Shown here: one piece after another, positions 1-26,288 of the stretch
Layout: each line of letters starts with the position of its first letter
Position numbering within the stretch: position 1 is the stretch's first letter
NCBI GenBank assembly: GCA_009193035.1
Contig: SWDT01000025.1
Coordinates: 1 to 64,000 of the forward strand
Source of the DNA: Halicephalobus mephisto
Lineage: Eukaryota; Nematoda; Chromadorea; Rhabditida; Panagrolaimidae
Length of the DNA: 64,000 nt
Direction: 5' to 3'
Program-made: the position numbers and the translations under genes
Notes under the pieces: model-generated
What the model saw: the letters and a program-made list of their open reading frames with translations, nothing else
Databases searched by the model: none
Told to the model about the DNA's origin: nothing

Positions 1-10
1 ATGTGAATAG

Positions 11-3000
11 TGTTCAAAACCACTAGAAATTTACAAAAAATTGATAGTAAAAAACGTAATAAAATTATTCTAGTTCTTAAACCCGGTAAACGACAAGCTC
101 CACCTCCACCGATAACTGAACCAAATCAACCAACCATGGATCCAGAAAATCCACCACCTGAACCCATTCCTCCCGAAGCAAAATCAGGACTTAACACAGT
201 GATAGATCCAATACCTCAACTAATCTTACCTCAAACACAACCTCAAGAACACACAGTAATTTTCCTGGGTGAAAGTGGAGTGGGTAAATCAACACTGATC
301 AGTGGTCTCGGTAACTATTTGAACTGGCCCACTTTCGAGGAGGCGAAGAAGAACCAAATGCAGATTTGCATCCCGGTGGAGTTCAAAGTACAGAGGAAAC
401 TTGAAGAGGGTAGATTCGACGAGACGACCGTGAGAGCTGGGGTAGTGGAAGACAACGAGAACTTCAACAGCATTGGACAGTCGGTCACTCAGAAACCCAA
501 AGTTCATGAATTCACTTTCCAGAACAACACAGTTAAAGTCATCGATACTCCTGGTCTCTCTGACACTAGAGGAGCTGAACAGGACAAGAAGAATCTCGAA
601 CTGATCAGAGAATGCATCCATGATCAAAAGGAGATCCATGCCATCTGCATCGTCCTCAAGTCGAATGAATCCAAACTCGGAAATCAGTTCGAACTGGCCA
701 TTCGGGACCTCCTCTCTCTCTTCCCTAAGTCGGCTCTCAAAAACGTATTCTTCTTCTTTACCTATGCGAGAGGAACCTACTTCGGGATCGGAGATATTCT
801 GAATCCCCTGAAGGAACTCCAACAGAAGTTCAGGGATTCTCATGGAGTCACTTTCGAATTCGAAGGAAGGAACATGTGTCCAGTGGACTCAGAGTCCTTC
901 AGATACCTGCTCTGTAAGGAACAGGGGATCAAATACAGCAGTAGTGAGGAGGAGAGATTTGAGTATTGCTGGAATGAGACGGCGAAACAAATGTGCGACT
1001 TTCTTAACTTCATCAAGACAGTCAAACCAATTGAAAAGAAAATTACTCTCGCTGTCCATCATTTAGTCACTACTGCTCTCAGGTTGGAGGAGTTCATAAG
1101 AACAAGTGACCAACTAACTCTCGAACAGAAAGACAGCCTTGTGAAAGAATCGAAAGTAATCATGTCTACAGCCAGAAAATACTCCATGGTTATTGAATAT
1201 CACAGGTTGACAACTGATGTGACAAATTGGAAAATTGAAGAATTTTGTGAATCCTGTGATCAATGTGAGAAAATAGTAAAAACCGTCGACGAAAAGCTTT
1301 CTGCAGACATATCTGAACATGTCAAGGAGACGGGTTATCTTCTACAATCACATAATGAAGCTGAAAAGGTCAATCATGAAGATAAACATGTGATTTCCCA
1401 AACTAAGGTTGAAGAAGTGGTCAACAACAGTAAGCAGGCTCCAATCGCGAATGCAGATCAACAGAATTCAGGTAAATACTTTTTGAGTAATTAGACATAA
1501 TAATGAGCATTTTTAGAAGAAGATATATCGTCGTTCGAAATTATCAACAATGATGAAAATAAAAAAGTATCAACAGAAACGAGTTCTACAGAAAATGACA
1601 CAATTGGTCAAATTTCCAAAGAAAATGGAACATCAGCTTCGTCTCTACCGATAACCACTAAATCACCACTCGTCGAAAAGCCAGAGATGTCACCACCTCT
1701 TGCGGAAGTAACACCAGAATGGGACAACATTATAACAGTGCATACAGCACGAGACGATTCCAGTTTTAATAGTTCCATCTCCTCAGCAGTTACAGAAGGA
1801 TGGAACAAGATCATCACAGAGTACACTGAACACGACACTATGCCATTCATAGAAGCTCCCCCATCGCCACCGCAAGAGTTCACAGTAATTTTCCTGGTGA
1901 AAGTGGTGTTGGAAAATCTACATTGATCAGCGGTCTCGGTAACTATTTGAACTGGCCCACCTTTGAGGAAGCAAAGAGAAACCAAATGCAAGTTTGCATT
2001 CCTTCAATTCAAAGTCCAACGAGGGAGATCGATAAGAGATCATAGAGACAATCGTAACAGCTGGAGATCCTGAAGACAACGAGAACTTCAACGACATTGG
2101 ACAGTCGGTCACTCAGAAACCCAAAGTTCATGAATTCACTTTCCAAACAACACAGTCAAAGTCATCGATACTCCCGGTCTCTCCGACTCCAGAGGAGCTG
2201 ACAGGATAAGGAAAATCTCAGACTAATCAGGGAATGTATTCACAACAAAAGGAGATCCACGCCATCTGCATTGTTCTCAAGTCTAACGACGCGAGACTGA
2301 GACCGGAGTTTGAGTTGGCCCTCCGAGACCTCCTCTCTCTCTTCCCCAAACCAGCTCTCAAAAATGTCTTCTTCTTCTTCACCTACGCGAGTGGAACCTT
2401 CTTCGGATCGGAGATTCAACCCGGACCAGTCAAAGAGATGCAGAAGAAGATCCAGGACTCCCATGAGGCTACCTATTCCTTCGAGGGGGAGAACACCTGT
2501 GCCGTCGACTCAGAATCCTTCAAATTCCTACTCTGCAAAGAACGTGGAGTGAAGTACAGCAATCGTCCAGAAGAGGATTTCGACTTTTGTTGGAATGAGA
2601 GTGCTGCTCAAGTCAAAGATTTCCTTACCTTCATCAAGACAGTCAAACCGATTGAAAAGAAAATTACTCTCGCTGTCCATCATTTGGCTACCACTGCTCT
2701 CAGTTTGGAGGAGTTCATAAGAACAACTGACCAACTAACTCAAAGAAAGAGAGACCACCTTGTAAATGAATCAAAAATCATTTTGAATGTAGCTAGAAAA
2801 TGGTCCATGGTTACTGAATATCACAGGTTGATAACTAACTTGGAACACTGGAGCGTTGATGAATTTAAGGAGTCTTGTAAGAAGTGTGAAAAATTCTTGA
2901 AAAATGTGAACACAAATTTCACCAAAGAAACATTCAAACGTCTTAAAAAGGAAAATAATCTCTTGATGGTGAAGAATGCAACGCAGATAACGACGTTACC

Positions 3001-4192
3001 GAATTTAGTTGTCGTATCTCCATCAGTATCATCAGCGCCATCTCTACCAAAATCCAAACCATTCACGATCATCTTTCTAGGAGAATCAGGAGTGGGTAAA
3101 TCGACACTGATCAGCGGTCTCGGTAACTATTTGAATTGGCCCACTTTCGAGGAGGCGAAGAAGAATAAAATGCAAGTGTGTATACCATTGCAATTCAAAG
3201 TTCAACGGAGGGGAGTCGATAAGAAGATCATAGAGACAATCGTAACAGCTGGAGATCCTGAAGACAACGAGAACTTCAACGACATTGGACAGTCGGTCAC
3301 TCAGAAACCCAAAGTTCATGAATTCACCTTTCAAAACAACACAGTCAAAGTCATCGATACTCCTGGTCTCTCAGACACTAGAGGAGCTGAACAGGATAAG
3401 GAAAATCTCAGATTAATCAGGGAATGTATTCACAACCAAAAGGAGATCCACGCCATCTGCATCGTCCTCAAGTCCAACGACGCGAGACTGAGACCGGAGT
3501 TTGAGTTGGCCCTCCGAGACCTCCTCTCTCTCTTCCCCAAACCAGCTCTCAAAAATGTCTTCTTCTTCTTCACCTACGCCAGTGGAACCTTCTTCGGGAT
3601 CGGGGATTCAACCGGACCAGTCAAAGAGATGCAGAAGAAGATCCAGGACTCTCATGAGGCTACCTATTCCTTCAAGGGGGAGAACACTTGTGCTGTCGAT
3701 TCAGAATCCTTCAAATTCCTACTCTGCAAAGAACGTGGAGTGAAGTACAGCAACCGTCCAGAAGAGGATTTCGACTTTTGTTGGAATGAGAGTGCTGCTC
3801 AAGTCAAAGATTTCCTTACCTTCATCAAGACAGTCAAACCGATTGAAAAGAAAACTACTCTCGCTGTCCATCATTTGGTCAGTACTGCTCTCAGTTTGGA
3901 AGAGTTCATAAGAACAAATGACCAGTTATCAGTCCAAGTACGGGATGAACTGAAGAAAGAAGTGAATGTGATATTCTCTGCAGCCAAGGAATGTTCCATG
4001 GTTACTGAGTATCACAGACTATTGACGAATGTGGAATGTGAAAATGAGAAGAAATTGCATGATGCTATTTTATCATTGGGCAATATCATTGAGAGAGAAA
4101 AGTTGAATATATCGTTTGACATTTCTAAATGGGAAAAAAATTTGCCGGAATGGTCGAAGATTGAAGCTGACAAAATTAATATTCATTTTTAA
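11..4192 (+). CDS. Gene A: large AIG1/septin-like GTPase with three tandem G modules, 5' truncated
   Basis: Two exons are visible: up to 1471 and 1517-4192, joined by a 45-bp intron (GTAAAT...TTTTAG) that splits a glycine/glutamate codon. The first exon starts at or before the window edge; no ATG is seen, so the 5' end is missing. Three G modules follow each other, each with a P-loop GESGVGKS (about 268, 1893 and 3082), a switch-II DTPGLSD motif and a VDSESF motif, then an alpha-helical tail. Low-complexity linkers (proline-rich at about 100-250, Ser/Thr-rich at 1520-1860) separate modules 1 and 2. No canonical (N/T)KxD G4 motif is present: the spot reads FTYARGTYFG or FTYASGTFFG. Module 2 is broken by several small indels between about 1890 and 2430, after which the frame is open again to the stop. 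Family membership is clear; the role (possibly immune, like GIMAP or GBP proteins) is inference. Confidence 0.8.
1880..2430 (+). other. Cluster of single-base indels in module 2 of gene A
   Basis: Compared with the sister modules in this window, the P-loop has lost one G of a GGG run near 1893 (cctggtgaaag instead of cctgggtgaaag). Two bases are missing near 2003 (attccttcaattc versus attcctcttcaattc), more near 2025-2040, one A near 2147 and one near 2202. A G deletion at about 2405 is followed by a compensating C insertion at about 2420. The sequence before and after is intact and open. Most changes are losses within short homopolymers, which is what uncorrected long-read consensus looks like; real decay of the module is the alternative. 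Confidence 0.75.
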
Positions 4193-4422
4193 GTGTGATT
4201 AGAAAATGTTTAGTAAGTAATATATTAAAAATATTCGATTCTTGTTGAAAGCAAGTGTTTTGTGCATTTGAATATTTTTTTGCGATTTCTAATACTAAGT
4301 TTTAATGATGAAATGTCTCATTTTAGGTGTGTTCCTCTATTTATCACGTTGTATTTTATCAAATACCAGCACTGTTGTTGTTTTTTAATTGTTAAATTGG
4401 TTTTTAGTTTTCAACATTAACC
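4193..4422 (+). promoter_or_regulatory. Spacer between genes A and B with a likely trans-splice acceptor
   Basis: This 230-bp AT-rich spacer ends with ggtttttag followed by ttttcaacattaacc and the start codon of gene B. The acceptor-like TTTTTAG 16 bases upstream of the ATG fits a spliced-leader addition site. No other feature is seen. Confidence 0.45.
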
Positions 4423-6174
4423 ATGTCTGCCCGATCAAGTTCTACCCAGAAAGAATTCACTATCTTGATTCTGGGTATGACGGGAGTCGGGAAATCGACA
4501 TTCATCAATAGCATTGCCAACTATCTGTCGTTCGAAACGTTAGAAGAAGCCATTAAAGAAACTCCTCATTGTATCATTCCGACCAGATTCACACATACGA
4601 TCAGAAATTTCGGCGGGAAGAGGTATACAGAATTGAATATTGAAATGAATGGTCAAAATGCTCTGGATTCCCATAATGAAGATCCTAACAATGGTAAATC
4701 CTCCACTCAAGCTCCAAGATCTTACTCCTTTATTCAAAGCAACATTAAAATCAACGTCATCGACGTCCCCGGGATTGGAGACACCAGTGGATATTTGGTT
4801 GACGAGAGAAACAAAAGAGCTATTATGGAGAAAATTGCGAAATTCCCTGAAATCCATTCTGTCTGGATCATGATGAAAGCTACAGAAACCCGGTCTACTA
4901 TCGAATTTCTCTACTCATTGAATGATGTTTTTTCAGTTATTCCTAGAAATGCAGTCGAAAACATCTCCTTCATCATCACCAACAGTAAAGCCTCGGACTT
5001 TACTCCGGGACATACACTTGACCCATTGAAGATCTTTGTAGAGGACCTGAATACTAACCATAATATGAACATCAATATCGACGACACGACTTTCTGTGTC
5101 GATAGTGAATCCTTCAGATTCCAAGTCGCCTACTATTGCAACGACACTTTCAAGCTTTATGTAGACACCGTTTTACCTCCTCAGACCAGAGAGCAGCACT
5201 ACGAGCGTTGTTGGACCGAATCTCGCGAATCGACCATGAGTCTTCTGGGAAAAACGTTGGGAGCAAGAGCCAAATCAACAAAGTCATTCTTGGCAATCAA
5301 CGAAGCTAGAATTCTGATTCCATGTTTCTTGAATGCCGCTGCTATGGTTCTCCATTTGATTGAGAAAAATAAATCTACTAAATTCAAAACAGAGCTAAAG
5401 AATAGTCTGATGAGAGGAACTGACATCCAAAATGACATCAATGTCAACAAAGGAAAATTGCCACAAACAGTTTGCACCAGTAAAAAATGCATCAAATGGA
5501 AGACTAAGCCCGATGGAAGCAAAATTTTTGAATTCACTCAAGTCTGTCATAATAATTGCCATTTGACAAACGTCATCTACGGCAAAACACCTCAAGACGC
5601 TCTCATTGACTGCCAAGCATTCAATATTTATAACAATTGTATCGAGTGCGGTTGCAATTATGCCTTCCACACTCATATTCATTATAACTTCCAGAATATC
5701 GTCAGAACTATATCCATTAAACCCAAAACAGCTGCTGAAAGCGAGGCTTACATAAAAAAATTCTTTGAGCAACTAGAAGCACTGCGGGCAGGTATTTTGA
5801 ACGCCTTTACGATCGCCTATCGGTACCTACATCAGAATGCAATCCTGACCTACAACACTACGTTGATTGACCGGCTGAACATGGAAATCAGAGTTCAGGA
5901 AAGTAATGACGAAAAAGATTCCGAAGTCATCAACAATTTGAAGAAAATCGTGAACGAACACGAGAAACTAATTCAAACCTTAGATAGTATCAAGAATATA
6001 GCACTAAAAGAACCAGTAACGTATGCAGAGTTCCAAAGCGCCATCAACCAAGTCTTTAATATGCCGCCGTTCGGAACAAAAATTAAGGAAATCTACGACT
6101 CGGAACGCGATTCAGCTAGTCAATACAGTATCGATTTCAAGCCTCTTCTTGTTAAGCATCTTCCAACTGTTTAA
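4423..6174 (+). CDS. Gene B: single-module P-loop GTPase with Cys/His-rich tail
   Basis: An uninterrupted 583-residue frame. The G domain is N-terminal: P-loop GMTGVGKS near residues 18-25, switch-II DVPGIGDT near 110, and NSKASD, which is close to a G4 motif, near 187. The VDSESF motif follows, then a helical region. Residues of about 350-425 hold a cysteine/histidine-rich block (VCTSKKC, CHNNCHL, CIECGC, HTHIHY) with the spacing of a zinc site; I know this G-domain plus CHxxC tail architecture from uncharacterised GTPases of animals and fungi. The C-terminus is helical, probably partly coiled-coil. It is the paralogue of gene F (21506). It lies 230 bp after gene A and about 155 bp before gene C, so co-transcription with C is possible. 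The start is the first ATG after a TTTTTAG acceptor. Biological role unknown. Confidence 0.85.
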   Translation: MSARSSSTQKEFTILILGMTGVGKSTFINSIANYLSFETLEEAIKETPHCIIPTRFTHTIRNFGGKRYTELNIEMNGQNALDSHNEDPNNGKSSTQAPRSYSFIQSNIKINVIDVPGIGDTSGYLVDERNKRAIMEKIAKFPEIHSVWIMMKATETRSTIEFLYSLNDVFSVIPRNAVENISFIITNSKASDFTPGHTLDPLKIFVEDLNTNHNMNINIDDTTFCVDSESFRFQVAYYCNDTFKLYVDTVLPPQTREQHYERCWTESRESTMSLLGKTLGARAKSTKSFLAINEARILIPCFLNAAAMVLHLIEKNKSTKFKTELKNSLMRGTDIQNDINVNKGKLPQTVCTSKKCIKWKTKPDGSKIFEFTQVCHNNCHLTNVIYGKTPQDALIDCQAFNIYNNCIECGCNYAFHTHIHYNFQNIVRTISIKPKTAAESEAYIKKFFEQLEALRAGILNAFTIAYRYLHQNAILTYNTTLIDRLNMEIRVQESNDEKDSEVINNLKKIVNEHEKLIQTLDSIKNIALKEPVTYAEFQSAINQVFNMPPFGTKIKEIYDSERDSASQYSIDFKPLLVKHLPTV

Positions 6175-6328
6175 ATTTACTCATTGTTATTTTTTCTGAG
6201 TCTCGGGTTAAAGTTTTAAACATACTGGTTTCAAAGAAATGTCTGTTAAAAACAGTTTGATATTTTCTGGACAATTTAAAGGTTTTTGAATATAATGATT
6301 TAGTTTTAGACCTGTTAGAAGATTTACC

Positions 6329-6491
6329 ATGACGTATGAATACCTTTACGGAAGAAATTCAGAAGATCAGCTTTACAAAAGTGATCAAATTAATCCAACC
6401 AAAACTACATTAAAATAAATAATAAATTAATCAATGACGTAGACAAACGAAGAATCTGGAGACGATTTTTCATGTTTCACCATTGACAAGT
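6329..6491 (+). other. Broken or misassembled first exon of gene C
   Basis: ATG at 6329 opens a frame reading MTYEYLYGRNSEDQLYKSD, which resembles the YFFYGRDPKARLCKSD segment of gene G exon 1, but it stops at 6416-6418. A second frame, open from just after a TGA near 6436, reads ETIFHVSPLTS up to a good donor at 6492 and resembles the end of gene G exon 1. The two halves are in different frames with stops between, so exon 1 is either decayed, carries an indel, or the true start lies elsewhere. Confidence 0.5.
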
Positions 6492-9400
6492 GTAAGTTCA
6501 ATTTAAAATGACATAATTAATTGATTAAATAAGCTAATTACATTAATTTCAGACAAACTTAGCGATTTCTGATCAAGTTGAATTCTTTAATGTATATAAA
6601 TTCGTTATGGTAAATGACATGACTGTATTAGAAATTGAGATTTCTAAATGGCAACAAGAAATTTTTACAGTTAAAAAGGACAGAGAAAAGGTGCCGAAAA
6701 ATCTTTATAGTGGACATCACATATTTGTCAAAATCGACAAAAAGGAAAAGGAGGTTGTTTGTAAGATTTTTAACTTTTCATAGTTTAGAGATATTTCAGA
6801 TGTACGAATATATTAAAACTGGAACATTAAAAGAAAAAAACAGAAAGAAACTCGACCCATCATCGGTTACTTGTGAATGGATGGAAAATTATGGGAAACC
6901 ACAAATGGACTCAGTAGAAAATTTTCTAAAAAGAATTGAACATTTAACTAAATCAAAAAGTGATGATGTAGGAATACCGTACAAAATTCTATTCTCCAAA
7001 AATCAAGCACCTGTTGATGAGAGATTTACAAAACTGTTATTAGAATCAAGGAGATATTGTACTGCTGTACAAAATCAACCAATTCAACCATCAAAATTGA
7101 AAGATCAGACTTTCACAGATGCATTTACAAAACTCAAAGAAACCATAGAAAAAAGACATAAAAACCAAGATTCTGAACAGAAATTGGCCACAGAATTCTT
7201 TAATTTAGTCAAAAATGGTTGGGAATTTTTGATGAAAAGGGAAAAGCAGATATTTGATTTCAAGGACTGTGCCAGCATTGTGACTAAGATGCAAAAAAGA
7301 GATTATTCGTTTCTAAAAGAAAGTGCTTATGAAATCAACGAAATAGATCCACCCAAGACAAAAGGGGATGAACCTTCAAGTGACGAAATATCAATAAACG
7401 AGTCATTCGAATTGATTGATCCTTTGATTTGTCCCAAATGTGGGAACCAAGTTAATTGTGTAATTTGTAACCCAAATATTGAACTATCAAATGAAAACTC
7501 AGATTTACCGCGAAATAGCAACTTCGAAAACATGAAGATTGGAGAAAAACCATCGGAACAATCTAGCTCAACTATGGAAAATTCTACACCTTCAAAGAAA
7601 GAAGAAGGAAAGCAAGATGAAGACCAAGTCAAACTCCATTCGAAAGATAAGTCTAATGAGGATTTAAATGAAAAAGATAGAGGAAACCAGACGAGTGAGG
7701 TGTTTTCTCAACAACGAAGAGAACCTACAGATGAACTTTACAAAAATAATTCTAACATGCAAACAACCAGTTCTCAGGAGCCACCGACTCCCCCGTGTTC
7801 ATTAAGTTGTCAACCAGGGCAGAAAGATAACCAACTGGATTCTCAGCCACATAATGAGGAAAAAAGTGAAATTCCTCCAACAAAATTCGATAATTCAGAG
7901 TACACACAACAAAATAATGAAGAATCAAATAACGACAATATGAATCCTAATGATGGCATTCATACATATGAAGAAAGATTCGTTTCAGATAATAATACTA
8001 CTCATAATCAACATGATGAAAACAACGATCTAACAGAAAAAACGAATATCATTTTAGCTGATTCTAATCAAGTTCAACAAGAATCTTCAGAGGAACAGGT
8101 AAATAATGGAAATAATGACGACAAACAACCTCCAGTTCAAAATAACACATTGGTAAAAATTAATTACAACGATCTAGAAAGAGAATTCTATGTGAATGAT
8201 GTCTCTCCAAGTAGAATAAAGCTCGCTTTCGAAATTAAATCAGGCGAGATAGACCTTTCTTTCGAAGAAATTATTTACAAAGAGAAAAATGAAACCGAAT
8301 TTGAACCTCCATTACTTCCTGGAGCATATAGATTGACAGTTCAAGGTCCAAAAGAATTCACAGTAATTTTCCTGGGTGAAAGTGGAGTTGGAAAATCGAC
8401 ACTGATCAGCGGTCTCGGTAACTATCTGAACTGGCCCACTTTCGAGGAGGCGAAGAAGAACCAAATGCAGATTTGCATCCCGGTGGAGTTCAAAGTACAG
8501 AGGAAACTTGAAGAGGGTGGATTCGACGAGACAACCGTGAGAGCTGGAGACTTTGAAGACAACGAGAACTTTAATGACGTTGGACAGTCGGTCACTCAGA
8601 AGCCAAAAATTCATCAATTCACTTTTCAAGGAAACACAGTCAAAGTCATCGACACTCCCGGTCTCTCCGACTCCAGAGGAGCTGAGCAGGACAAGAAGAA
8701 TCTCGAACTGATCAGAGAGTGCATTCACAACCAGAAGGAGATCCACGCCATCTGCATCGTCCTCAAGTCGAACGACGCGAGACTGAGACCGGAGTTTGAG
8801 TTGGCCCTCCGAGACCTCCTCTCTCTCTTCCCCAAACCGGCTCTCAAAAACGTCTTCTTCTTCTTCACCTACGCAAGTGGAACCTTCTTCGGGATCGGAG
8901 ATTCAACCGGACCAGTCAAAGAGATGCAGAAGAAGATCCAGGATTCTCATGAGGAAACATATTCCTTCGAGGGGGAGAACACTTGTGCCGTCGACTCAGA
9001 ATCCTTCAAATTCCTACTCTGCAAAGAACGTGGAGTGAAGTACAGCAACCGTCCAGAAGAGGATTTCGACTTTTGTTGGAATGAGAGCGCTGCTCAAGTC
9101 AAAGATTTCCTTACCTTCATCAAGACAGTCAAACCGATTGAAAAGAAAATTACTCTCGCTGTCCATCATTTGGTTACCACTGCTCTCAGTTTGGAAGAGT
9201 TCATAAGAAATAGTGATCAACTAACTCCAAAAAAGAGAGACAACCTTGTGAAAGAGTCAAAAATCATTTTGAATGTAGCTAGGAAATGGTCCATGGTTAC
9301 TGAATATCACAGATTAAAGAGAGATTTGGAACACTGGAACGTTGATAAGTTTCCTAACTCTTGTGAGAAGTGTGAACAACTCATAAACAGTGTGGACAAA

Positions 9401-10909
9401 AAGGTTTCTGAAGAGTTATTTACACATGTCAAAAAAGCATGGGATTTATTAACATTAAAAAGTGCAGTAGGGAATGTTGACCTCAGCGAAGAAGAACATG
9501 AGAATTGGTCATCTAAAATTGAGAAGGAACACACTGATAAAGTTCAGGTTTCGATTTGCATGATGAATAAACAGCATTCAGGTAAATCGATTTGTAGTAA
9601 TTATTGGAAGTGATGAGAATTTGTAGGCACAGATATAACTTCCGCTGACAACGTGATTAATGTTGACGGTAATCACATGTTGACAAACACTAATAACATT
9701 AAACATGATAGTGCTCTTCCTGTTGCCAAAGAAGACAACAACGTAGCTAGAGTGATATCAAATTCAACAGTATCAAGTGTGAAAAGTGACCTATCTCCAC
9801 CTGAATCGAAAATTCAAGAATACACAATCATTTTTCTTGGAGAATCAGGAGTGGGCAAATCAACATTGATCAGTGGTCTCGGTAACTATTTAAATTGGCC
9901 CACTTTCGAGGAAGCAAAGAAGAACCAAATGCAGGTCTGTATTCCTCTTCAATTCAAAGTTCAGAAAACAGAAGAAGACAACAAAATTATAGAGACAATC
10001 GTAACAGCTGGGAATTCAGAGGAAAACGAGAACTTTAATGACGTTGGGCAGTCGGTTACCCAGAAACCTAAAGTCCATGAATTCACCTTTCAAAGCAATA
10101 AAATCAAAGTCATCGATACTCCTGGTCTCTCTGAATATGGAAATAGCGACTTGGATAAGGAGAAACTAAACCTCATTAGAAGTTGTGTCCACGAACAAGA
10201 AAACATCCACGCCATATGTATTGCGCTCAAGTCAGATGGATCAACTTTGAACAACCATTGCATTGTCACTCTCAGATGGCTTCTCTCCATCTTCCCTAAA
10301 ATAGCTCTGAGCAATGTCTTCTTCTTTTTCACTCATGCTGACAGAACCCGATTGGATAATGAAGTCACATTGAAACTACTAAAAGAAACTCAGCAAAAGT
10401 TGGAAGATATTTACAAAGGAACTTTTAAAATTGAACAAAAAAATATTTATTCAGTAGAATTGGAATCCTTTAAATACCTCTTGTCTGAAAATCAAGGAAT
10501 CAAATACAGTAATTTTGAAGAAAATGTCTTTGCGTTTTCTTGGGAAGAAACTTCATTCCAACTTGGAGAGTTTTTCAAAGTCGTCAAATCTATGAAACCG
10601 ATCAATAAAGAAGTGATCATCAATGTACACAAACTGACGGCCTCAGATTCACAGCTCCGTATTCAGGGATCGATTAAAACAGAAGATGAAACGATAATCT
10701 CTAAAGGAATGGACAAACTTCAATTCATGATCATGAAGCATTCTCTCGTGACTCCCCGATACTCCCCTATGTCTGAAGATGTTAAGATGGAAGAACTTTT
10801 CACTGATCTGGATGAAATGACCCCAGTAATCAAAAAATACAGACCAGGAGTTCTCGACACAATCCTTGAGATAAAGAAAGTTGTCTATTATTTCGAAAAT
10901 TTACAATAA
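6329..10909 (+). CDS. Gene C: large GTPase, N-terminal domain, zinc knuckle, beta domain and two G modules
   Basis: Most of the protein lies in two exons, 6800-9581 and 9627-10909, joined by a 45-bp intron at the same place as in gene A. Upstream, 6553-6753 encodes a segment homologous to exon 2 of genes D, E and G (ends in GHHIFVKI). The putative first exon (6329-6491) is discontinuous. After the N-terminal domain comes a CxxC-x5-CxxC knuckle (CPKCGNQVNCVIC, about 7430-7470), a long Asn/Ser/Glu-rich linker, and a beta-rich domain ending PGAYRLTV at 8340. Then come G module 1 (P-loop near 8374) and G module 2 (P-loop near 9838). Both G modules have DTPGLS and lack a standard G4. Module 2 is the most diverged of the large-type modules and may be older. 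Expression possibly shared with gene B just upstream. Confidence 0.75.
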
Positions 10910-15200: not shown

Positions 15201-16550
15201 GATCCTCCTGAAATTCTTCATTTTTTGACATTTTAAAAATATCCCCACCTGGCAATAATGGAGTTTCCTCTGTGACATTGGGATCATTAACAAGGTCTGA
15301 TGAAGATTCACTTTTAGAAGAACTCTGCTCGGGATTTGATTGAACGGAATTATTCTGGTTCCAGTTGTTTACAGTTTTCTTCTTTCGATTGTTAGCTATT
15401 ACCTGAATTAAGGAAATTAATTCCTTATTTTCTATAATTTCCGGATATTTTATAAATTTTTCATCGGGACCAATTTCCAGTAACTTCTTTATCATTTTTT
15501 TGAGTCGCAGAAGTGATTTTCCATCCATTGGTTTGTTCTTTATAAGGTCATTGATCTCTTTTGGGATCTCAGTATTGTAGAGATCATTGTAGTCATATGA
15601 AATCTCTTCGTCACTTTCTCCCAATCCTGTTGCTTTCTGTAGCTCCATCACAAACTCGACCATTTTAATAGACCGTTGAGTATTAATATATAATTCTTCG
15701 TCCTCTAAGTGAGCAAACACAGCTACACTATTATTTCCGTTTTTGTGTTCTTCAAACTTGTCCAAGAGATTTTGAATCCTACCATGTTGTATATGCTCTT
15801 CAAAATCTACCAAGTAAGAACATTCGAGATCGACAACATTGGAATCTCTCGTTAAGATTCTCGAAAGTAAATATAAATATCTCGTCCAAATTCTTTCAAT
15901 CTATAACTTTCTATTTTTCACTATTAAATATACACTTTTACTAACCTGTAATTTTCTTATGAAATTAGTCTTGACAGCCAAAAGATAATGATGCCCATAC
16001 TTTACTTTCGAAAAACGCGGTGGTTCTTTCTGAGTATTTTTCCATTTTATTTCTTCTTTTACCATGATGATTGAAAAGATCGTAACTGGTCCTTCTATTT
16101 TATTAAAGAATTCCAAAATCCGCAGAAATGCTTCATTTTTTTTCAGGATCAAGCGAATCTGAAATTTTCCGTCCAATTAATCTTCTGCTTTTTTAAAAGA
16201 AGAATTAATGTTATCAGTGCTGTATTTGACTGCTAGAAGAGTTTTTGATAAAAGACTTACCACATCATTTGTTGACAATTTGAGCAAAGTGAAGAACCTC
16301 AGATAGTCTTTGATAGTCTTTGGAGAATTGATTTCAATAGACAAAACGCTTACTGTATCTCTTTTTTCTTTTTGTTTTGAATCATTGATGAAGGTAAGAT
16401 TTTCAAAATCTTGGTCATAACCTATTGGAATCCTTTCTGGTTTTGAAAACAGAAAAACCGCTCTTTTTGTGATTGGTAAATTTGCCGGTTGAGGAAATAT
16501 TGAACAACAACCTTTAAGAAACACGCAAACATTTGAAGTATGATCAATGG
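12252..16550 (-). CDS. Gene D: inverted large GTPase with two G modules, multiply frameshifted
   Basis: Read on the minus strand, exons are about 16550-16261, 16158-15946 (213 bp, same size as gene G exon 2), 15900-15249, and 15207 to 12252. The last intron is only 41 bp (15248-15208) and restores the frame after EETPLLPG. The first exon with the start codon was not found. The N-terminal domain, a helical segment, a Pro/Ser-rich linker, the beta domain (ends PGAYTLTV) and G module 1 (P-loop near 14565) are followed by a proline-rich linker (13380-13440) and G module 2 (P-loop near 13345). The C-terminal half is interrupted by many 1-base losses (about 14200, 14170, 14130, 13945, 13890, 13370, 13195, 12745). 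If the sequence is right this is a pseudogene; if these are consensus errors it is intact. Its first module and linker closely match module 2 and linker of gene A. Confidence 0.7.
12730..14260 (-). other. Cluster of single-base indels across both G modules of gene D
   Basis: Relative to the sister modules, the minus-strand reading has lost single bases at many short runs: ttccc for ttcccc and cctcg for cctccg near 14120-14145, gcaag for gcaaag near 13940, gttga for gttgga near 13890, one C before the module-2 P-loop near 13373, one A near 13196 and one G near 12742. The segment 14000-14080 is more scrambled. The unique N-terminal exons upstream (15.2-16.5 kb) show no such damage. Confidence 0.7.
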
Positions 16551-17017: not shown

Positions 17018-20000
17018 ATGGGAAGAAAATATTTCTTCGGTAGAGAAACTGTATTTTCTGATGGATATAAAGTTGATGCTTTATCTGGAATTGAACTCGA
17101 TGATACATGTGAAATTGAAGTCAAGGTAGCTTTTGGAAGAAAACCATTAGAAGCAGTTCGTCATTTATTTGGAATAACGTTTTATCAAATTGTAAGTTTT
17201 ATAATTGTGTATATATAAGATTAAACAAAATTAATATTTTAGTTAGAGCTATTTCTTGACCAATCAGCAGAATTTAAAAGAATTCTTAACTATATACTGT
17301 GTAAAAAAAATGAAGATAGTATTATAGCCCTAGCATTATTGGATAGAAAGAACTATCATATTGACAGAGGATTCACTTATCGTGGAAATATGGTTATTTT
17401 TGTATTCGAAGACATTACTTCAGGTGTATCAGGAGAAGCATTAAATATAGTATCGAGCCAGGTAAACAATTTCGTCTATCATTAAAAGTAATTAATATAA
17501 ATTTATATAGGTACGAACGGGAATAACGAGCATGTTGACTACAGGAGAAATCCCAAAAGATATGGACCGATTATTAAACATCGACAAAAATAACAAAATT
17601 TACTGCATGTTTAATTATAAAACATTCAAAACGGATTCCATTGAACCGTGTCTTATTGAAATTAATGAACAACGGAGGAAAACGCCAATTCCTTTGTATG
17701 CAATAATGCAAGATGATAATCCATCTTCAGATTCTTCTGTCACAGAGGATACCTGTACATATTGCCACGTAACAAAGCTGCTCGTACAAATCTTTTGTTT
17801 ATTAAGGCATTATTATGAAAAAGATGATTATATCCATACACCGGTTACACATCCAGTAAATATTCATCCCTTATTGAAGGATCTTATTGATCGAGGAACA
17901 GATTATATCTACAATCTTGCTAAAAGTGCTGTGCACACAAAGAGGCGCGATATTGACGAATTTTGTAACAACAATATTAAACTTCAATTATTCATTCAAT
18001 CTGAATTCTATGGTAATAGAACGTATTCTTCTTACAGTTCAGCTATTCAAGAATATTCTGCTGTATTATCGCAATTAAATCATATGGACATTATACCATC
18101 AAAAAGTCAGTGGGTGAGTCAGGAAAAAGGACAAACAATCATTGAAGGAAGGATACGAAATTGGGATCGGAAAGTAATTGTGCCAAAGAATATGCACAAA
18201 TCATTTTTTGAATTTTGCGATGATGGTGAACTTAGCCGATTCACATGGATCCGTGATAATAATACTGTTGAAAAAGAAGCGGTCGTTGGTATTAGCGAAG
18301 GAGAATATTATCTTGGTCTTGCTCGTATTAAAAACAAACCATTAAGGCAAACGACTGTTGGAGTTGTTCTTGATTTAGTAGAAATGTTTATGCCGTTTTC
18401 TACTTATGGTATTGCATATAAATTAATTAGTAAAAAATCATTTATTATTACCAAGTGCCCCTGGTGTTCGGTCGAGAAGTTACGCATCTGGATTTGTGAA
18501 ACTTGCCGATTTCTTGTTCGTGAATGGAGTAAGACAGAAGTTGCATGTATTTGTGGAAGGACTAAATGGGGAAATTTACAATTATTTTGTTATGGATGCA
18601 GTACCATAGAAAACTCGTCGTTCCAATGGAAATCGCAAGACGACCTACCAGATAATGTAAAAGAAGATATGACTCGATTACAGGATTATGGGGTCACAAA
18701 CACACAAGATCAATATATTGGTAAGGGAAGTAATCCTGAAGAATCAAATGATTACGAAATTGCTAGACAATTGCAAGAAGAGTATGACAATAATCCAAAT
18801 GCGGAGTATTCTATTTTAGAACGTCAACAATCACATTTGGATCAATCTAAATCATCAGAGCATCCTGTAAATTCAAACTCAGAGACTGGAGCAGAATCCC
18901 CAAAGAACCCATGTTCAACAAAGAGTGAGAAAATTTTGTCGAACAACAACAATTTTGTAAAAGGAAGTGATATGGCTAAACGATTCAGTTTTCTTCAAGA
19001 TCGAAGAGAATCAAATCCAGAAAGTGAAACTCAAAATACTGAATTACCTGAGGGATCTTCTCAAAAACAAGACGATACTAACAATTTAACTGATTTTAAA
19101 ATTGACAACCAAAATGATCAGTCAGTAGTAAAAGACAATGTTCAAGATGATTCTCTAGTGGCAAATGAAAAAACAGGTAATAAACTATATCAAAATCTTT
19201 CCTCATCTCTTCCCCTCTCTACATCAACAACTAATGATGACAACTACCAACATACGAACCAAAATTCAGCCCCTTCTGATTCTCAGGCAGCAGATCACAG
19301 AGATAACAAAGATACACCAGCAATATACTTGAGTCAAATGTCTGAAGAACCCAATGCTCATATACTTACAAATACAGATCTTGATGAGATAGATAAATAC
19401 AATGATTCAAGTAACACAAATCCACCAGAACCTCAGAAGACTACTGTATTGATCAACCACAATAATGTCATTAATGAATATGAACTGAAAGATATCACTC
19501 CCCACAAAGTTAAAACTGATTTCAACATCCAATATGGAATGATAGTCCAAAAAAATACTATGATAAGAATCAATTACAAGGATCTAGAAAGAGAATTCGA
19601 TGTGAATGATGTCTCTCCAAGTAAAATAAAGCTCGCTTTCGAAATTAAATCACGCGAGATAGACCTTTCTTTCGAAGAAATTATTTACAAAGAGAAAAAT
19701 GAAAGTGAATTTGAACCACTATTAGTTCCTGGAGCATATAGATTAACAGTTCGAGGTCCAAAAGAATTCACAGTAATTTTCCTGGGTGAAAGTGGAGTTG
19801 GAAAATCGACACTGATCAGTGGTCTCGGTAACTATCTGAACTGGCCCACTTTCGAGGAAGCGAAGAAGAACCAAATGCAGATTTGCATCCCGGTGGAGTT
19901 CAAAGTACAGAGGAAGCTTGAAGAGGGTGGGTTCGACGAGACAACGGTGAGAGCTGGGACAGTGGAAGACAACGAGAACTTTAATGACGTTGGACAGTCG

Positions 20001-20924
20001 GTCACTCAGAAACCCAAAGTTCATGAATTTACTTTCCAAAAAAACACAGTCAAAGTCATCGATACTCCTGGTCTCTCTGACACTAGAGGAGCTGAACAGG
20101 ACAAGAAGAACCTCGAATTGATTAGAGAATTCATCCATGATCAAAAGGAAATCCACACCATCTGCATCGTCCTCAAATCCAATGAGTCCAAACTCGGAAA
20201 TCAGTTCGAGCTTGCTATCAGAGACCTCCTCTCTCTCTTCCCTAAGTCGGCTCTCAAAAACGTATTCTTCTTCTTTACCTACGCGAGAGGAACCTACTTC
20301 GGGATCGGGGATATTCTGAATCCCCTGAAGGAACTCCAACAGAAGTTCAGGGATTCTCATGGAGTCAGTTTCGAATTCGAAGGAAGGAACATGTGTCCTG
20401 TGGACTCAGAGTCCTTCAGATACCTGCTCTGTAAGGAACAGGGGATCAAATACAGCAGTAGTGCAGAGGAGAGATTTGAGTATTGCTGGAATGAGACGGC
20501 GAAACAAGTCTTGGATTTCCTTGCTTTCCTTGAAAGTGTTGATCCTGTTGATGTGGAGGAAATCAAAGCAGCTCATGAGATTGCGAAAACTGCCTTGGAG
20601 TTGGAAAAGTTCCTGAGAACGGACAAGGCATTAAAGAAGGGTCTCTCAGAAAGAGCAGTAGAACTGTTGAACAAAAGAGGGGAACCATTATTTTGTATTG
20701 CTAGAAGTCTGACAATGGTCCCCGAGTATTACCGACTGAAAACAGAAAAGGTTGAATTTGATTCTACAGAGATAAAGAAATCAATAGAGGAACTTCTACC
20801 TGTTGTGAAAAGTTCAAAAGTATTACATGATGGACTCTTGAAATTGACAGATAATTTAAAACTCTGGAGAAAACATGGTGAAATGAACACGGGAACTTCT
20901 GTTGCTAATGGTACAAATAGGTAA
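17018..20924 (+). CDS. Gene E: large GTPase with four-knuckle zinc module, double beta domain and one G module
   Basis: Three exons, 17018-17191, 17243-17461 and 17511-20924, all joined in phase 0, give about 1268 residues. The first two exons match the N-terminal domain of C, D and G (YFFGRE start). Unlike the others, residues of about 140-500 form an extra globular region ending in paired cysteine knuckles: C447-x2-C450, C460-x2-C463, C477-x-C479 and C491-x2-C494, a probable two-zinc ribbon. Around residue 545 the helix NDYEIARQLQEEYDNN resembles ubiquitin-binding UIM/MIU helices (a guess from pattern). A low-complexity linker follows, then one partial and one complete copy of the beta domain. 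The single G module has its P-loop at residue 890 (GESGVGKS) and DTPG at 982, and lacks a canonical G4. The helical tail is the VDPVDVEEIK type shared with D module 2 and G. The function is unknown. Confidence 0.85.
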
Positions 20925-21505: not shown

Positions 21506-23239
21506 ATGAAAGGTGACTCGAATTTGAGCAAAAAAGAATTCACCATCCTGCTTCTGGGAATGACAGGCGCTGGGAAGTCCACATACATCAACAGTGTCGC
21601 CAACTATCTCTGTTATGAGACTTTAAAAGAAGCGGTCAATGGAAGTCGGCCTGTATGTATCATCCCTACCAAATTTGATCACACTTGTAAAATGCCTAAT
21701 GGAGGTTTCCAAACGATAACAATTGAAATGGAGGGACAAAACGCAGCTGATGAAGGTAATGAACGTTTTGGTTCTGCTCAATCAGCTACTCAACAACCGA
21801 GATGCTATTCCTTCGTTCAAAACGACATCAAGATCAATATCCTCGATGTTCCTGGAGTGTGTGACACCAGAGGCATTGAAACAGACAAAGAAAACAAGAA
21901 GCTCATTATTGCGAAAATCCAACAATTTCCAGAAATCCATTCTATTTGGATATTGTTGAAATCATTGGAGAATCGTGAAACAACTCAGTTTCTTTTTAGC
22001 TTGAAGGATATATTTACCGTAGTTCCGAAACAAGCCATTGAGAACATTTCCTTCGTTATCACGCACAGTAAGAGCACAGATTTTACCCCTGGGCAGACCA
22101 TCACACCTCTGACTAACTTTATCGCCAACCTCAACGCTAGTCAGAATTTGAATATAGACTTAAATAAGACCATATTCTGCGTCGATAGTGAATCCTTCAG
22201 ATATCAAGTAGGATGGTATACGAGTCCTAAATTCAAAGCAGACGTCAAAAATAAAATAAATTCCTACGAAGAATCATGGATAGAATCTCGTAGAGCTACA
22301 TTGAATCTATTGGAGAAGACCCTTAAAGCGGTTCCCCGACCATCTGCGTTGTTTGTAGCTGTCCACAATGCAAGAGTCGCGATCCCCTGTTTTCTCAATG
22401 CAGCCACCAGAATTCTCACTACTATTGAAAAAAACAAATCTCCAAGTTTCCGCAAAAAATTAACACAACAGTTGATGAATGGGAATCAAATCCAAAACGA
22501 TATCAATGTCAACAAAGCGAGATCTCCCAAGACAATCTGTACTGGTCGAAACTGCATCTCGTGGACTATTCAAAAAGATGGAACTAAGAAATTCAACTTT
22601 AACATCTGTCATAATAATTGTTACTTAAGCAACATCGTTCACGGGAAATATCCCCAGGAAGCTCTGATAGACTGTCAAATCTTCGATATTAATGAAAAGT
22701 GCAATATATGCGGATGCAGCTATAAAGTTCACACCCATGCTTTCTTCGATTTTGAAAACGTTGAGAAATCTACAAAAGTTCCTAAAATGACTCAACCTCA
22801 AGCCGAGGCTTGGATCAATAAATATTTGAAGGAACTGAATGCAATGAAGAATGCCATTTTTGATGCTTTCCTCGTCGCTTATCGCTATCTTCATCAGAAC
22901 TCTATTTTGACTTACAACGATTCACTTGAGGAACAGGTTAACCTTGAAATCAGAGTTCTGGAAGGAACAGAAACTGCAGATCCAGAAGTAATCAAAAATC
23001 TGAAGAGCGTTATTGAAAAGCATAAACAGATGGTTGAAACATTCCAAGCGTTATCGAAAAATGATTTACAAAAGGACAAAGTTACTAATGAAAAATTCGC
23101 CGAAGTCATCAACAAAGTCTTCGCTTTGCCTCCACTAGGACCAACGATCAAAAAGATCTATGATTCAGAACGAGAAACTGTGATAGAATATAGTTCCGAT
23201 TTTACTCCTCTTCCTGTCAACCATGTACCACGTGTTTAG
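21506..23239 (+). CDS. Gene F: single-module P-loop GTPase with Cys/His-rich tail
   Basis: A continuous 577-residue frame, paralogous over its whole length to gene B. The N-terminal G domain has P-loop GMTGAGKS near residue 18, switch-II DVPGVCDTRG near 115 and HSKSTD in place of G4 near 190. The tail has TICTGRNC, CHNNCYL, CNICGC and HTHAFF, a conserved Cys/His constellation likely to bind zinc. The C-terminal third is helical. The start follows a TTTTTCAG acceptor by 12 bases. Gene G begins 142 bp after the stop, the same order and nearly the same spacing as B and C, so F and G may form an operon. No defects seen. Role unknown. Confidence 0.87.
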   Translation: MKGDSNLSKKEFTILLLGMTGAGKSTYINSVANYLCYETLKEAVNGSRPVCIIPTKFDHTCKMPNGGFQTITIEMEGQNAADEGNERFGSAQSATQQPRCYSFVQNDIKINILDVPGVCDTRGIETDKENKKLIIAKIQQFPEIHSIWILLKSLENRETTQFLFSLKDIFTVVPKQAIENISFVITHSKSTDFTPGQTITPLTNFIANLNASQNLNIDLNKTIFCVDSESFRYQVGWYTSPKFKADVKNKINSYEESWIESRRATLNLLEKTLKAVPRPSALFVAVHNARVAIPCFLNAATRILTTIEKNKSPSFRKKLTQQLMNGNQIQNDINVNKARSPKTICTGRNCISWTIQKDGTKKFNFNICHNNCYLSNIVHGKYPQEALIDCQIFDINEKCNICGCSYKVHTHAFFDFENVEKSTKVPKMTQPQAEAWINKYLKELNAMKNAIFDAFLVAYRYLHQNSILTYNDSLEEQVNLEIRVLEGTETADPEVIKNLKSVIEKHKQMVETFQALSKNDLQKDKVTNEKFAEVINKVFALPPLGPTIKKIYDSERETVIEYSSDFTPLPVNHVPRV

Positions 23240-23380
23240 TTTTTTGATCAATAAGTTAATAACACGGTGTTGTGAACAACATATACTAATTTCTGGATGA
23301 TCGATTGATATACTGTTCGAAACAGTAGTATATTTATCAATTTAATTATTAACGTGTTGAACAATTAATCGTATTTTAGG

Positions 23381-26288
23381 ATGACTTCAAAGATACACAA
23401 TGCATATGAAAAATCTGGAAATACTACGTCATCATTTAAATACTTCTTTTACGGTCGAGATCCGAAAGCTAGACTGTGCAAAAGTGATATAGTTTTGGAA
23501 GACAAAGAGATTCTAACGAATCCTCATGAGAAGACTATTTTCCAATGTCATGATAAAGAAATTAAACGTAAGAATGCACACGAATTATTTCATATTTCAA
23601 AAGCAGAATTTGTGAGTTTTAAATTTATACTAGATTATTTAACAGTTTTATTACAATTCTTTTAGGTTGAATTACTCGTTAGCAATCACAACCAGTTATT
23701 TCAAGTCTTTGAATTCTGCAAAGGACAAGACACAGCCATAATAGAAATTGAAATTGTAAAGTATTCACAACAAGTTCATATTGATATCGATTACTCGAGC
23801 GGAAGAACACTAATTCCTGAAAATATGTGCACAGGCCACCACATTTACGTCAAAGTACCGAAAGAACAATCAGAAAAAGTACGATATTTCATTTTATAAC
23901 TAAATATTATAGTTATTCTTCTAGGTTAGGAAATCCTTATTAGATCGAAAGATTCACACAGATTTAGACTGTATTGAATGGATGGAGAATTATGATAAAA
24001 GAAAAGAAGGAACGTTTAGAGCACTACTAGCAAGAATAGCTGAACTGGAAATTTGTTATGATGTAGGAATTCCATACAAGATGGAATGTTATAAGAATCA
24101 AATAGAAGACCAATCTAAAAAGTTAAACTTTATTCTTGATGCCAAGAGAATTTATTCTTATCAAGAGAATGAAGAAGAACACGCCGAAAAAGATAAGGAA
24201 GGAAATGAAGTCAAGAAAAGCGGTGACCTCTTCAAAAAAATGAAAAAACTAAATGATAAAATTAAGAAAAGTGAAGTAAATCAACTACTCTCAGATATCC
24301 AACAGAATTGGCTGGAAATAATGAAGAATAATAAACTACTTGATGGCAAAAAATGGAAAGATATCATTGCAAATTTGTATAAAAAAAAGAAATCATCTGA
24401 TAATCCCCCAAATCCAAACGTTACAGAAAGGACTATAGATATCACTCCGACAAGTTCTAAGAGAACATCAGTAACGACACTGATTTCTAATTCAGGGAGT
24501 GACCAACCGTTATGTTGTAATAGATGCCGTACTCCGATGATTTGTCCAAACTGTGAGCAGCAAAAACCAGATACCACGAGACACAACAAGGGGGTGATTG
24601 ATGACCGGGAAGAAAACTTTAGTAAAACTTCTACGCCTACTCCTCAACCAAGAAAAAAAGGTAATAGTGGATTACAACCTCAAAACAATCAAGAAATATA
24701 CAATACTAATAGTATGGGAACCCAGAATTCCTCCCCTGCTGATATTGGACAAACCCAACCATTAAACCTGGACCGAAGGGAGCAAAAAAGTACAATTGGG
24801 ATGGAGTTAAAATCTTCTCAGGTTCTTCAAAATCTTACCAACCAAGTTAATTCGACAGCAACGTTCAATAACAGAGAAAAATCAGAAAAGAAAGAAAACA
24901 ATAGACGAAAACCCCCAACGACTGCTCTGTCCATTAACTACAAAGATAAAACTTTTCACTATAAATACACCAATATCCTTCCTAGCACGATCAAAACCAA
25001 TTTAAAAATTCATTCCGGAGTGCTGCAACTAGTCCAACACAACAAAATTTATATACAAAAAAGTGAAAGTGAATTTGAACCACTATTAGTTCCTGGAGCA
25101 TATAGATTGACAGTTCGAGGTCCAAAAGAATTCACAGTAATTTTCCTGGGTGAAAGTGGAGTTGGAAAATCGACACTGATCAGCGGTCTCGGTAACTATT
25201 TGAATTGGCCCACTTTCGAGGAGGCGAAGAAGAACCAAATGCAGATTTGCATCCCGGTGGAGTTCAAAGTACAGAGGAAACTTGAAGAGGGTGGATTCGA
25301 CGAGACAACTGTGAGAGCTGGGACAGTAGAAGACAACGAGAACTTCAACGACGTTGGACAGTCGGTTACTCAGAAACCCAAAGTTCATGAATTTACTTTC
25401 CAGAACAACACAGTCAAAGTCATCGATACTCCTGGTCTCTCTGACACTAGAGGAGCTGAACAGGATAAGGAAAATCTCAGACTAATCAGGGAATGTATTC
25501 ACAACCAAAAGGAGATCCATGCCATCTGCATCGTCCTCAAGTCGAATGAATCCAAACTCGGAAATCAATTCGAACTGGCCATTCGGGACCTCCTCTCTCT
25601 CTTCCCTAAGTCAGCTCTCAAAAACGTCTTCTTCTTCTTTACATATGCGAGAGGAACCTACTTCGGGATCGGGGATATTCTGAATCCCCTGAAGGAACTC
25701 CAACAGAAGTTCAGGGATTCTCATGGAGTCAGTTTCGAATTCGAAGGAAGGAACATGTGTCCTGTGGACTCAGAGTCCTTCAGATACCTCCTCTGTAAGG
25801 AACGGGGAATCAAATATAGCAGTAGTGAGGAGGAGAGATTTGAGTATTGCTGGAATGAGACGGCGAAACAAGTCTTGGATTTCCTTGTTTTTCTGAAAAG
25901 TGTTGATTCCCTTGATGTCGAGGAAATCAAAGCAGCTCATAAGCTTGTGAAGAATGCTTTGAACTTGGAAGAATTCTTAAGAACGAAAGAGAATCTTTTT
26001 AAAGAAGATAGAGAATTAAAAGAACATGTAGATCGTTTATTTTTCGCTGCTAGAAATGTCACTATGGTTCCTATGTATAATCGTTTGAAAAACGAATTAA
26101 CGGAAGTAGACAATGAAGCTGTTTTGGAATCGATAGAAAAGCTTTGTGGAAAAGGGGAACTTCAAAGTTTGATTAGTTCATTAGAGGAATGTATGCAAGG
26201 AGTACACTTTTTACAAGATTTTCACAACAAGGAACAAACAATCGACAATTTACCTGACTCTCATAATAGTGAATGTATGCATTTTTGA
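23381..26288 (+). CDS. Gene G: large GTPase with N-terminal domain, zinc knuckle, beta domain and one G module
   Basis: Exons 23381-23611, 23666-23878 and 23925-26288, all phase 0, give about 935 residues. The ATG is one base after an ATTTTAG acceptor. Exons 1 and 2 carry the N-terminal domain shared with C, D and E (YFFYGRD start; GHHIYVKV near the end of exon 2). Exon 3 begins with a lysine-rich helical stretch, then CNRCRTPMICPNC (about 24515), the same CxxC-x5-CxxC spacing as gene C. A Gln/Asn/Ser-rich linker follows, then a beta domain whose end is PGAYRLTV (25095-25125), whose first half is diverged. The G module P-loop is near 25153, with DTPGLSD near 25430. G4 is missing (FTYARGTYFG). 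The tail is the short VDSLDVEEIK type. This is the cleanest full-length model of the large class in the window. Confidence 0.88.

Follow-up and report, generated by a model that had tools for sequence, protein, structure and literature searches.

Analysis of the AIG1-type GTPase genes of the nematode Halicephalobus mephisto suggested a paired and shuffled design: at the 11 loci read in detail a compact gene (C) is located directly upstream from a large gene (A) on the same strand, and the two probably form an operon. Judged by their sequences, the A genes are mosaics, with N-terminal halves repeatedly shuffled against G cassettes. The preliminary description of this DNA had suggested an undescribed system; for the family that is wrong, because the AIG1 expansion in H. 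mephisto, with 84 AIG1 domains, is in print (Weinstein et al. 2019, PMC6872716). No description was found in the literature for the paired and shuffled C-A design. The accessible parts of PMC6872716 share with our data the family type, the dozens of copies and the several domains per AIG1 protein, report relatives in Diploscapter and Panagrellus, and do not mention a pairing of C with A, the ribbon, DUF8206, an origin by splitting or an exchange of N-domains.

The window analysed is a stretch of 64,000 nucleotides; its position 1 is also position 1 of contig C233, and gene 1 is therefore truncated by the contig end. The eleven G modules in seven genes counted previously between positions 1 and 26288 were recovered from ORFs, Pfam AIG1 and a module-query scan: three in gene 1, two each in D and E, and one each in C1, F, C2 and G. 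The C genes comprise a Toc34/GIMAP-fold GTPase, a Cys/His domain ("DUF8206") and helices; the A genes comprise an N-terminal domain, a zinc ribbon or CxxC knuckles, a disordered linker and AIG1-like G modules, one to three per gene. Confidence in this predicted anatomy is high. The features are:

1..4192, plus strand: A-type gene 1 with three G modules, truncated at its 5' end where the contig begins (ORFs, Pfam, module query)
about 241-1101, 1872-2722 (frame broken) and 3056-3913, plus strand: G modules of gene 1
4423..6174, plus strand: C1, C-type: a compact GTPase with G domain, Cys/His domain and helices; putative first cistron of a C-A pair
6175..6328, plus strand: C1-D intercistronic stretch; Watson-Crick hairpin CTGTTAAAAACAG; acceptor TTTTAG, last base 6309; start codon ATG at 6329
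6329..10909, plus strand: D, A-type; small putative 5' exons, exon 1 with a stop
6632-9613, plus strand: large exon of D, in frame: N1 domain, CxxC knuckles, linker, beta stretch, module at 8348-9208
9815-10645, plus strand: second module of D, beyond the putative intron 9582-9626
12255..15900, minus strand: E, A-type; N3-type N terminus, two G modules, several frame breaks
17511..20924, plus strand: F, A-type: N2 domain, zinc ribbon at about 18456-18590, linker, module at 19758-20618
21506..23239, plus strand: C2, C-type GTPase, putative first cistron of a C-A pair
23240..23380, plus strand: C2-G intercistronic stretch; 7-bp Watson-Crick hairpin TACTGTTCGAAACAGTA; acceptor TTTTAG, last base 23379; start codon ATG at 23381
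23381..26288, plus strand: G, A-type; putative 5' exons from 23381
23925-26288, plus strand: large exon of G, in frame: N1 domain, CxxC knuckles, linker, beta stretch, module at 25122-25982

In gene F the beta stretch is present in one and a half copies, a recombination seam. Sequence-based models place small putative 5' exons in the A genes and putative 45-nt GT-AG introns (1472-1516 and 9582-9626) between tandem modules; what looked like a reading frame upstream of D proved to be a wrong frame of D exon 2 and was rejected. Several frameshifts were found in module 2 of gene 1 and in gene E, and an internal stop in D exon 1; these broken frames are due either to pseudogenes or to an unpolished assembly.

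AIG1 was once reported absent from the nematode phylum. A scan of the 59.9 Mb genome gave 59 Pfam AIG1 matches spread over 26 contigs, which supports the earlier claim of an AIG1-type expansion and identifies the cluster as one site of a genome-wide family, not an isolated locus. The nematode origin and the multi-domain architecture were likewise supported, and the comparison with GIMAP-type expansions is a fair one. The module query, copied from gene G, scored 337-601 bits against the remaining intact A modules in the window and 132 and 149 bits against the two C proteins. Protein searches listed at least two matches for the gene G query and at least one for the A profile.

Assignment of the G modules to an AIG1/septin-like class held, with Toc34 as the top fold match and Pfam AIG1 (PF04548) above the cut-off of 27 bits: six A frames of the window scored 38.7-51.2 bits, the best stretch covering profile positions 24-150 of 212, C1 (27.0) and C2 (29.8) were borderline, and E-values were as low as 1.3e-13. 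For the AlphaFold model of C2 (mean pLDDT 87.2), the best superposition was with Toc34, ahead of the general P-loop background, and GIMAP came second, level with that background; the predicted G domain of C falls on this test in the Toc34/GIMAP fold class. Matches to the Septin family (PF00735) were listed for five of nine window proteins, at 13.7-22.3 bits, below the cut-off of 26.2; some relatives carry PF00735 in precomputed annotation.

The canonical G4 motif is (N/T)KxD. The 75-row C-family alignment departs from it, reading T (72 rows), N (52) or H (17), T (34) or S (30), and R (58) or K (10), with K at the second place in a single row; most A modules have FTYARGT or similar in this stretch. 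Compared with Toc33/Toc34 and GIMAP, the family has mostly T[NH][TS][RK] in place of this motif, and an extra helical and Cys/His half.

The preliminary description could not name the large-protein architecture, which is now placed as a split form of a eukaryotic zinc ribbon-G-DUF8206 protein. Among 120 listed relatives of C1, 94 carry DUF8206 (PF26633, precomputed annotation), including P0001, P0003 and P0004, which cover 98-100% of C1; C aligns with these GTPases over its full length, and A has the G domain in common with them. Relatives occur in arthropods (beetles, springtail, mite), fungi including Rhizophagus, tardigrades and Dictyostelium, and some carry MACPF_SNTX, HEPN or fn3 domains. 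The zinc ribbon of A was also found in 23 of 122 DUF8206 relatives, at 11.7-28.2 bits; among 732 reversed or shuffled controls a single sequence exceeded the inclusion threshold (9.1 bits for the whole sequence; 9.8 for the best single stretch of another). Ribbon, G and DUF8206 mostly share one protein in these relatives (20 of 23), whereas here they are distributed over two cistrons. Because all three are joined in one protein in certain ecdysozoans and fungi, and also in one gene of the present genome, the C-A pair looks like the product of duplication and split of one gene. No literature was found on DUF8206, nor on SNTX or MACPF together with GTPases.

The arrangement expected of a nematode operon (same strand, short gap, acceptor and ATG) was found at all 11 detailed loci: the acceptor, picked by eye, lies 113-161 nt past the C stop and the ATG 1-19 nt beyond. 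The first-exon peptides of A are alike, with GRD or GRN in 9 of the 11. This pattern led us to drop direct splicing of C to A, and it makes improbable the alternative that C and A belong to a single spliced gene or are each driven by a separate promoter, even though the Panagrolaimus model P0001 fuses both, and at C105 the C and A parts lie in abutting frames. Not every copy is paired: a nearby C match is missing for many A matches, and for the C subfamily at C235 and C216:630640 no A frame was found directly downstream within the examined stretch. At C216 the nearest A frame lies on the same strand at a distance of 5.7 kb, and another GTPase frame, on the opposite strand, intervenes.

The hairpin evidence for the intercistronic stretches is mixed. 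Eight non-redundant loci (C16, C233 end and C69 omitted as near copies) were compared with 500 shuffles. A strict 5-bp Watson-Crick hairpin was present at 6 of 8 loci (shuffles: mean 2.13, maximum 7, at least 6 in 2 of 500); with G-U pairs allowed the count was 8 of 8, reached by 25 shuffles, and with 4-bp stems 7 of 8, reached by 45. Folding energies, calculated in 22-nt windows with 40 shuffles per locus at 11 loci, gave a clear hairpin only at C318 (0/40 shuffles as low) and a weak preference at C188 (4/40) and C191 (5/40); no preference was seen at C2-G, C216, C162, C322 and C69 (11-20/40), and for C1-D, C16 and C233 end the figure was 35-40/40. The SL2 leader pattern gave no match; the Rfam SL2 model gave one match above cut-off, and none of 47 Rfam SL1 matches was above it. 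The mostly negative energies and the unmatched SL2 pattern favour the alternative without an operon, but SL2 is not required, since operons of the tylenchine S. ratti are reported to be resolved with SL1-type leaders (PMC1657053).

The shared N-terminal domain described previously holds for D and G only (N1, 27% identity). The N termini of F (N2) and E (N3) have no detectable similarity to N1, and a likeness of N1 and N3 to N2 seen by eye was unsupported (hhalign probabilities at most 1.1%); three N-terminal types, mutually without detectable similarity, are carried on one common G module. Within one gene pair the synonymous divergence of N-halves and G modules differs up to about 27-fold, and conversion-like tracts have the G module at their centre. 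For the N-terminal parts, sequence searches of Pfam and PDB named neither a recognition nor a death domain and gave weak sub-threshold matches only (e.g. PARP14 KH domain, E 0.0033). Convincing positive selection was detected in no domain, the N-domain w of 1.55 in the G pair being based on 3 synonymous changes.

Toc33/34, GIMAPs and septins pair via their G domains. C and A would pair in the same way, and for a C-A heterodimer the chances appear even. The complex would form on a target or on an internal membrane; recognition of the target would fall to the variable terminus of A, extended by the linker, and nucleotide-driven assembly with the C stalk would execute the response. The C-A unit with its cassette swapping fits a diversifying recognition or defence system. 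The best explanation, although it falls somewhat short of an even chance, is an expanded two-component GTPase family with C-A assembly and variable recognition by A; cell-autonomous defence, with many parallel specificities on one engine, is the best single guess for its role, at similar strength. More tentatively, an ancestral ribbon-G-DUF8206 protein could have split in panagrolaimids into a constant C and a diversifying A, as a two-cistron recombining recognition system in which ectopic exchange keeps adding N-terminal specificities to a G engine that is itself homogenised; the idea that such a system is the invertebrate counterpart of the expanded repertoires of NLRs or GIMAPs is just as tentative.

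The Biomphalaria glabrata AIG genes likewise occur in tandem arrays, combine AIG1 with other domains, in some arrangements with two AIG1, and respond to immune challenge (PMC7053062); they belong to a mollusc and, in what is available of that paper, have coiled coils and DD-CARD partners and no two-cistron unit. By title, no other nematode family of this kind besides that of PMC6872716 was found among the matches listed; the available part of PMC7423139 contains no mention of AIG1, and that of PMC11439043 mentions it once, as an expanded stress family.

The expansion could also be neutral or selfish, driven by unequal exchange and gene conversion, with N-terminal swaps as by-products and many copies decaying. 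Family copies at contig ends (C16, both ends of C233, C258, C128, C324), the broken frames and the conversion tracts are in agreement with this, and neutral gene conversion can produce homogenised G modules. It is nevertheless rather unlikely, given purifying selection on G modules (w 0.07-0.32) and C genes (0.14-0.53; by parts with usable dS), open frames of about 860-1140 codons in many copies, a C-A order retained over deep lineages, and a close copy of gene G in the interior of contig C162. A role as membrane or organelle regulators in abiotic stress would suit the fold class shared with Toc33/34 and GIMAP, and the authors of PMC6872716 speculate on hypoxia and other non-thermal stress; yet the AIG1 transcripts reported there were, as a set, unchanged with heat, and cassette swapping is in our judgement unusual for a stress housekeeping gene, so that we regard this role as unlikely. 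The heat result says nothing about infection.

Horizontal acquisition from a fungus of the rhizosphere, which PMC6872716 proposed for AIG1 of H. mephisto with a tree, appears very improbable. Fungal relatives do exist, and in our unrooted tree of limited sampling the long-branched Fusarium domain P0077 adjoins panagrolaimid C domains at 93/89; in the same tree, however, Rhizophagus groups with Gigaspora (99/94) and not with nematodes, and the C247 gene lies outside fungi. The animal and Dictyostelium relatives also speak against it.

These findings bear on the proposed fungal transfer of AIG1 and turn an expansion reported in 2019, and unexplained, into a testable two-component system, in which experiments can address the partner gene, the ribbon, the origin by splitting and the exchange of cassettes one by one. 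They also draw notice to a large uncharacterised eukaryotic GTPase family, the ribbon-G-DUF8206 proteins, some members of which have MACPF_SNTX, HEPN or fn3 partners. Should the role prove to be defence, nematodes would gain a diversifying intracellular system.

Reading frames and a comparison of the modules bore out the eleven G modules in seven genes of the preliminary description; the largest frames reach 1137 codons. The gene models rest on DNA alone, and copy numbers are lower bounds. Two gene types were distinguished. In type C (genes C1 and C2) the G domain stands at the very start and is followed by a domain with conserved Cys/His residues and by a helical part. Genes 1, D, E, F and G make up type A. 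In these an N-terminal domain, which the truncated gene 1 has lost, is followed by a zinc ribbon or CxxC knuckles, by a long linker of low complexity, frequently by a beta-type stretch, and by between one and three G modules. Pfam AIG1 scored 38.7-51.2 bits in the A genes of the window, above the cut-off of 27, and a borderline 27.0 and 29.8 bits in the C genes.

Type C genes and non-cluster neighbours in the window
4423-6174: C1, type C
21506-23239: C2, type C
28370-63713 (all past 27 kb): ligand-gated channel, V-ATPase AC39, ABCA-type transporter, Srg/Srv-type chemoreceptor
28370-63713: trehalase, Ras-family GTPase, ribosomal S19 and L30 family proteins, alpha/beta hydrolase

The genes past 27 kb are ordinary nematode genes; AT-rich tandem repeats are numerous there. 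Frame breaks are densely placed in near-identical modules at 1507-2722 and 12255-15900, as expected from either unpolished long-read repeats or pseudogenes. In such arrays, assembly errors may have interrupted the frames of module 2, gene E and exon 1 of D.

The genome (59.9 Mb in 331 contigs, of which C233, whose first 64 kb form the window, has 260,004 bases) contains 59 AIG1 matches on 26 contigs, 57 of them at or above the cut-off, five of these only jointly with neighbours in the same frame; some of the weak matches may be other GTPases. A probe from the C-terminal half of C gave 26 matches, merged by us to 23 loci, several being fragments, and the A-gene N-terminal types N1, N2 and N3 gave 8, 19 and 10. 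On contig C324 (stretches L012, L013, L015, L016 and L017) several A genes have linkers built, immediately before the G module, from a unit of about 25-30 residues (VTAEWDNIITVYTEHETIPLIIVPSPP-like) repeated in tandem. The expansion, proposed as undescribed, is already known: PMC6872716 reports 84 AIG1 domains in H. mephisto and a blastn check on 63 AIG1 loci. Neither the AIG1 section and other passages of that article nor the titles listed in the literature searches, for most of them a part of the matches, mention pairing, a ribbon, a split origin or cassette exchange; within the literature surveyed, these seem to be what is new.

Eleven loci, two of them in the window and the others at the C233 end and on C16, C216, C162, C318, C191, C322, C69 and C188, share one arrangement: the C stop codon is followed after 113-161 nt by an acceptor (TTTTAG, TTTCAG or ATTTAG, chosen by eye from printed candidates) and, 1-19 nt further, by the ATG of a small first A exon. 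Unspliced, the frame from this ATG is open for at least 59 codons in nine of the 11; stops cut it in D (29 codons) and the C233-end copy (22 codons). GRD or GRN occurs in 9/11 first-exon peptides, near copies counted (FGRDCSNIVGY, FYGRDPKARL, LYGRNSEDQL). Ahead of the acceptor there is often a short hairpin; its statistics were mixed and a folding-energy test was mostly negative. The SL1 leader together with its donor occurs in the genome in 60 perfect copies, and in the tylenchine S. ratti SL1-type leaders resolve operons, according to Guiliano and Blaxter (PMC1657053).

The order has exceptions. On C16 and C258 the part matching DUF8206 (PF26633, the Cys/His domain and helices after the G domain) lies inside the A frame, and on C105 the C and A parts abut. 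The C gene at C191:644946 has a ribbon frame 3.2 kb downstream with an opposite-strand frame in between; for that at C216:630640 the nearest A frame, which has the same orientation, begins only after 5.7 kb of downstream sequence; and for the C genes of C235 no A frame was found directly downstream within the stretch fetched. Genome-wide, many A matches, such as most of those on C324, have no C match nearby. In two A-type frames (L009:7438-9999 and L020:303-3254) a DUF8206 part that lacks its G domain is inserted between ribbon and G module, which is a further domain shuffle. Stretches L043 and L045 (C216, C235) hold a distinct C subfamily with the P-loop GETGSGKT and without ribbon. Within the stretch fetched, no A frame follows it directly, and the other strand has more G-domain frames.

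A C profile search found 140 proteins. Among the 120 listed, from nematodes, beetles, a springtail, a mite, a tardigrade, fungi and Dictyostelium, 94 carry PF26633; of the named relatives, Halicephalobus sp. NKZ332 and Panagrolaimus come closest, for which reason we regard the source as a Halicephalobus-like panagrolaimid. When 17 A-type ribbons were combined into a profile, 23 of 122 proteins matched (E <= 1.1e-3; next 0.32). The ribbon ends 5-23 residues ahead of the P-loop in 22 of these, those in which the pattern found the P-loop, and PF26633 is present in 20 of the 23, including Diploscapter, Heterodera, tardigrade, Fusarium and Mortierella proteins. In the same genome, C247:429500-433500 joins ribbon (9.2e-7), G (1.2e-113) and DUF8206 (1.5e-49) in one frame. 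Because ribbon matches mostly carry PF26633 and this frame joins all three, the ancestor was likely ribbon-G-DUF8206, with G-DUF8206 retained by C and ribbon-G by A; the C247 gene is likely the ancestral form.

In a tree of 57 domains (root unplaced, A branch long) the A modules group in a single clade (100/100), to which the second domain of the Panagrolaimus protein P0001 also belongs, and one panagrolaimid group (98/94) takes in the C domains of this genome. C191/C318 and C216/C322 split apart in both. P0001 joins C and A in a single model, and since P0012 is a nearly identical C part by itself, this suggests a merged operon model.

The A genes are mosaics. Synonymous divergence between N-domains and between G modules was 0.044 and 0.864 for F versus its C255 copy, 0.048 and 1.304 for D versus C16, and 0.036 and 0.308 for G versus C162; it was reversed for C216 versus C322 (1.591 and 0.165) and showed no step for C216 versus C69 (0.261 and 0.175). 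Sliding identity of F to the C255 copy was 92-100% over residues 1-630, mostly 82-98% up to 840, and 40-73% inside the G domain and beyond it. In the comparison with a second C255 gene it climbed from 46-62% to 99% where the beta stretch starts, and against gene G it was 76-99% across the greater part of the G module, with 36-71% on both flanks. The beta stretch is present one and a half times in F, a seam shared with the second C255 gene. G modules are under purifying selection (omega, a dN/dS-type ratio, 0.07-0.32); the constraint on N-domains and linkers is looser (0.28-1.63), and in the domain-wise comparison changes were too few for a claim of positive selection on them.

Several explanations may be considered. 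Neutral conversion is a plausible alternative, as is a role in stress; according to PMC6872716, heat left the AIG1 transcripts of H. mephisto unchanged when taken as a set, and one fell. Acquisition of the family by fungal transfer appears very improbable. The Fusarium domain P0077, which adjoins the panagrolaimid C group (93/89), counts toward it; this domain has a long branch, and its placement may be either an artefact of that branch or a transfer. MACPF_SNTX is joined to relatives in 9/120 listed proteins, HEPN in one and fn3 in one; P0076, P0104 and P0110, from sources including Diploscapter pachys and Rhizophagus irregularis, combine MACPF_SNTX with this GTPase type.

Two related GTPases stand in fixed order as a pair that has expanded and recombines; one member is relatively constant, the other varies. 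C and A would be partners of one complex, the A terminus might supply specificity, and action may be by G-G assembly together with the C stalk. A role in defence is our tentative first choice, because of the cassette diversification, the MACPF_SNTX, HEPN and fn3 relatives, and the precedent of the snail AIG genes (PMC7053062, consulted in part).
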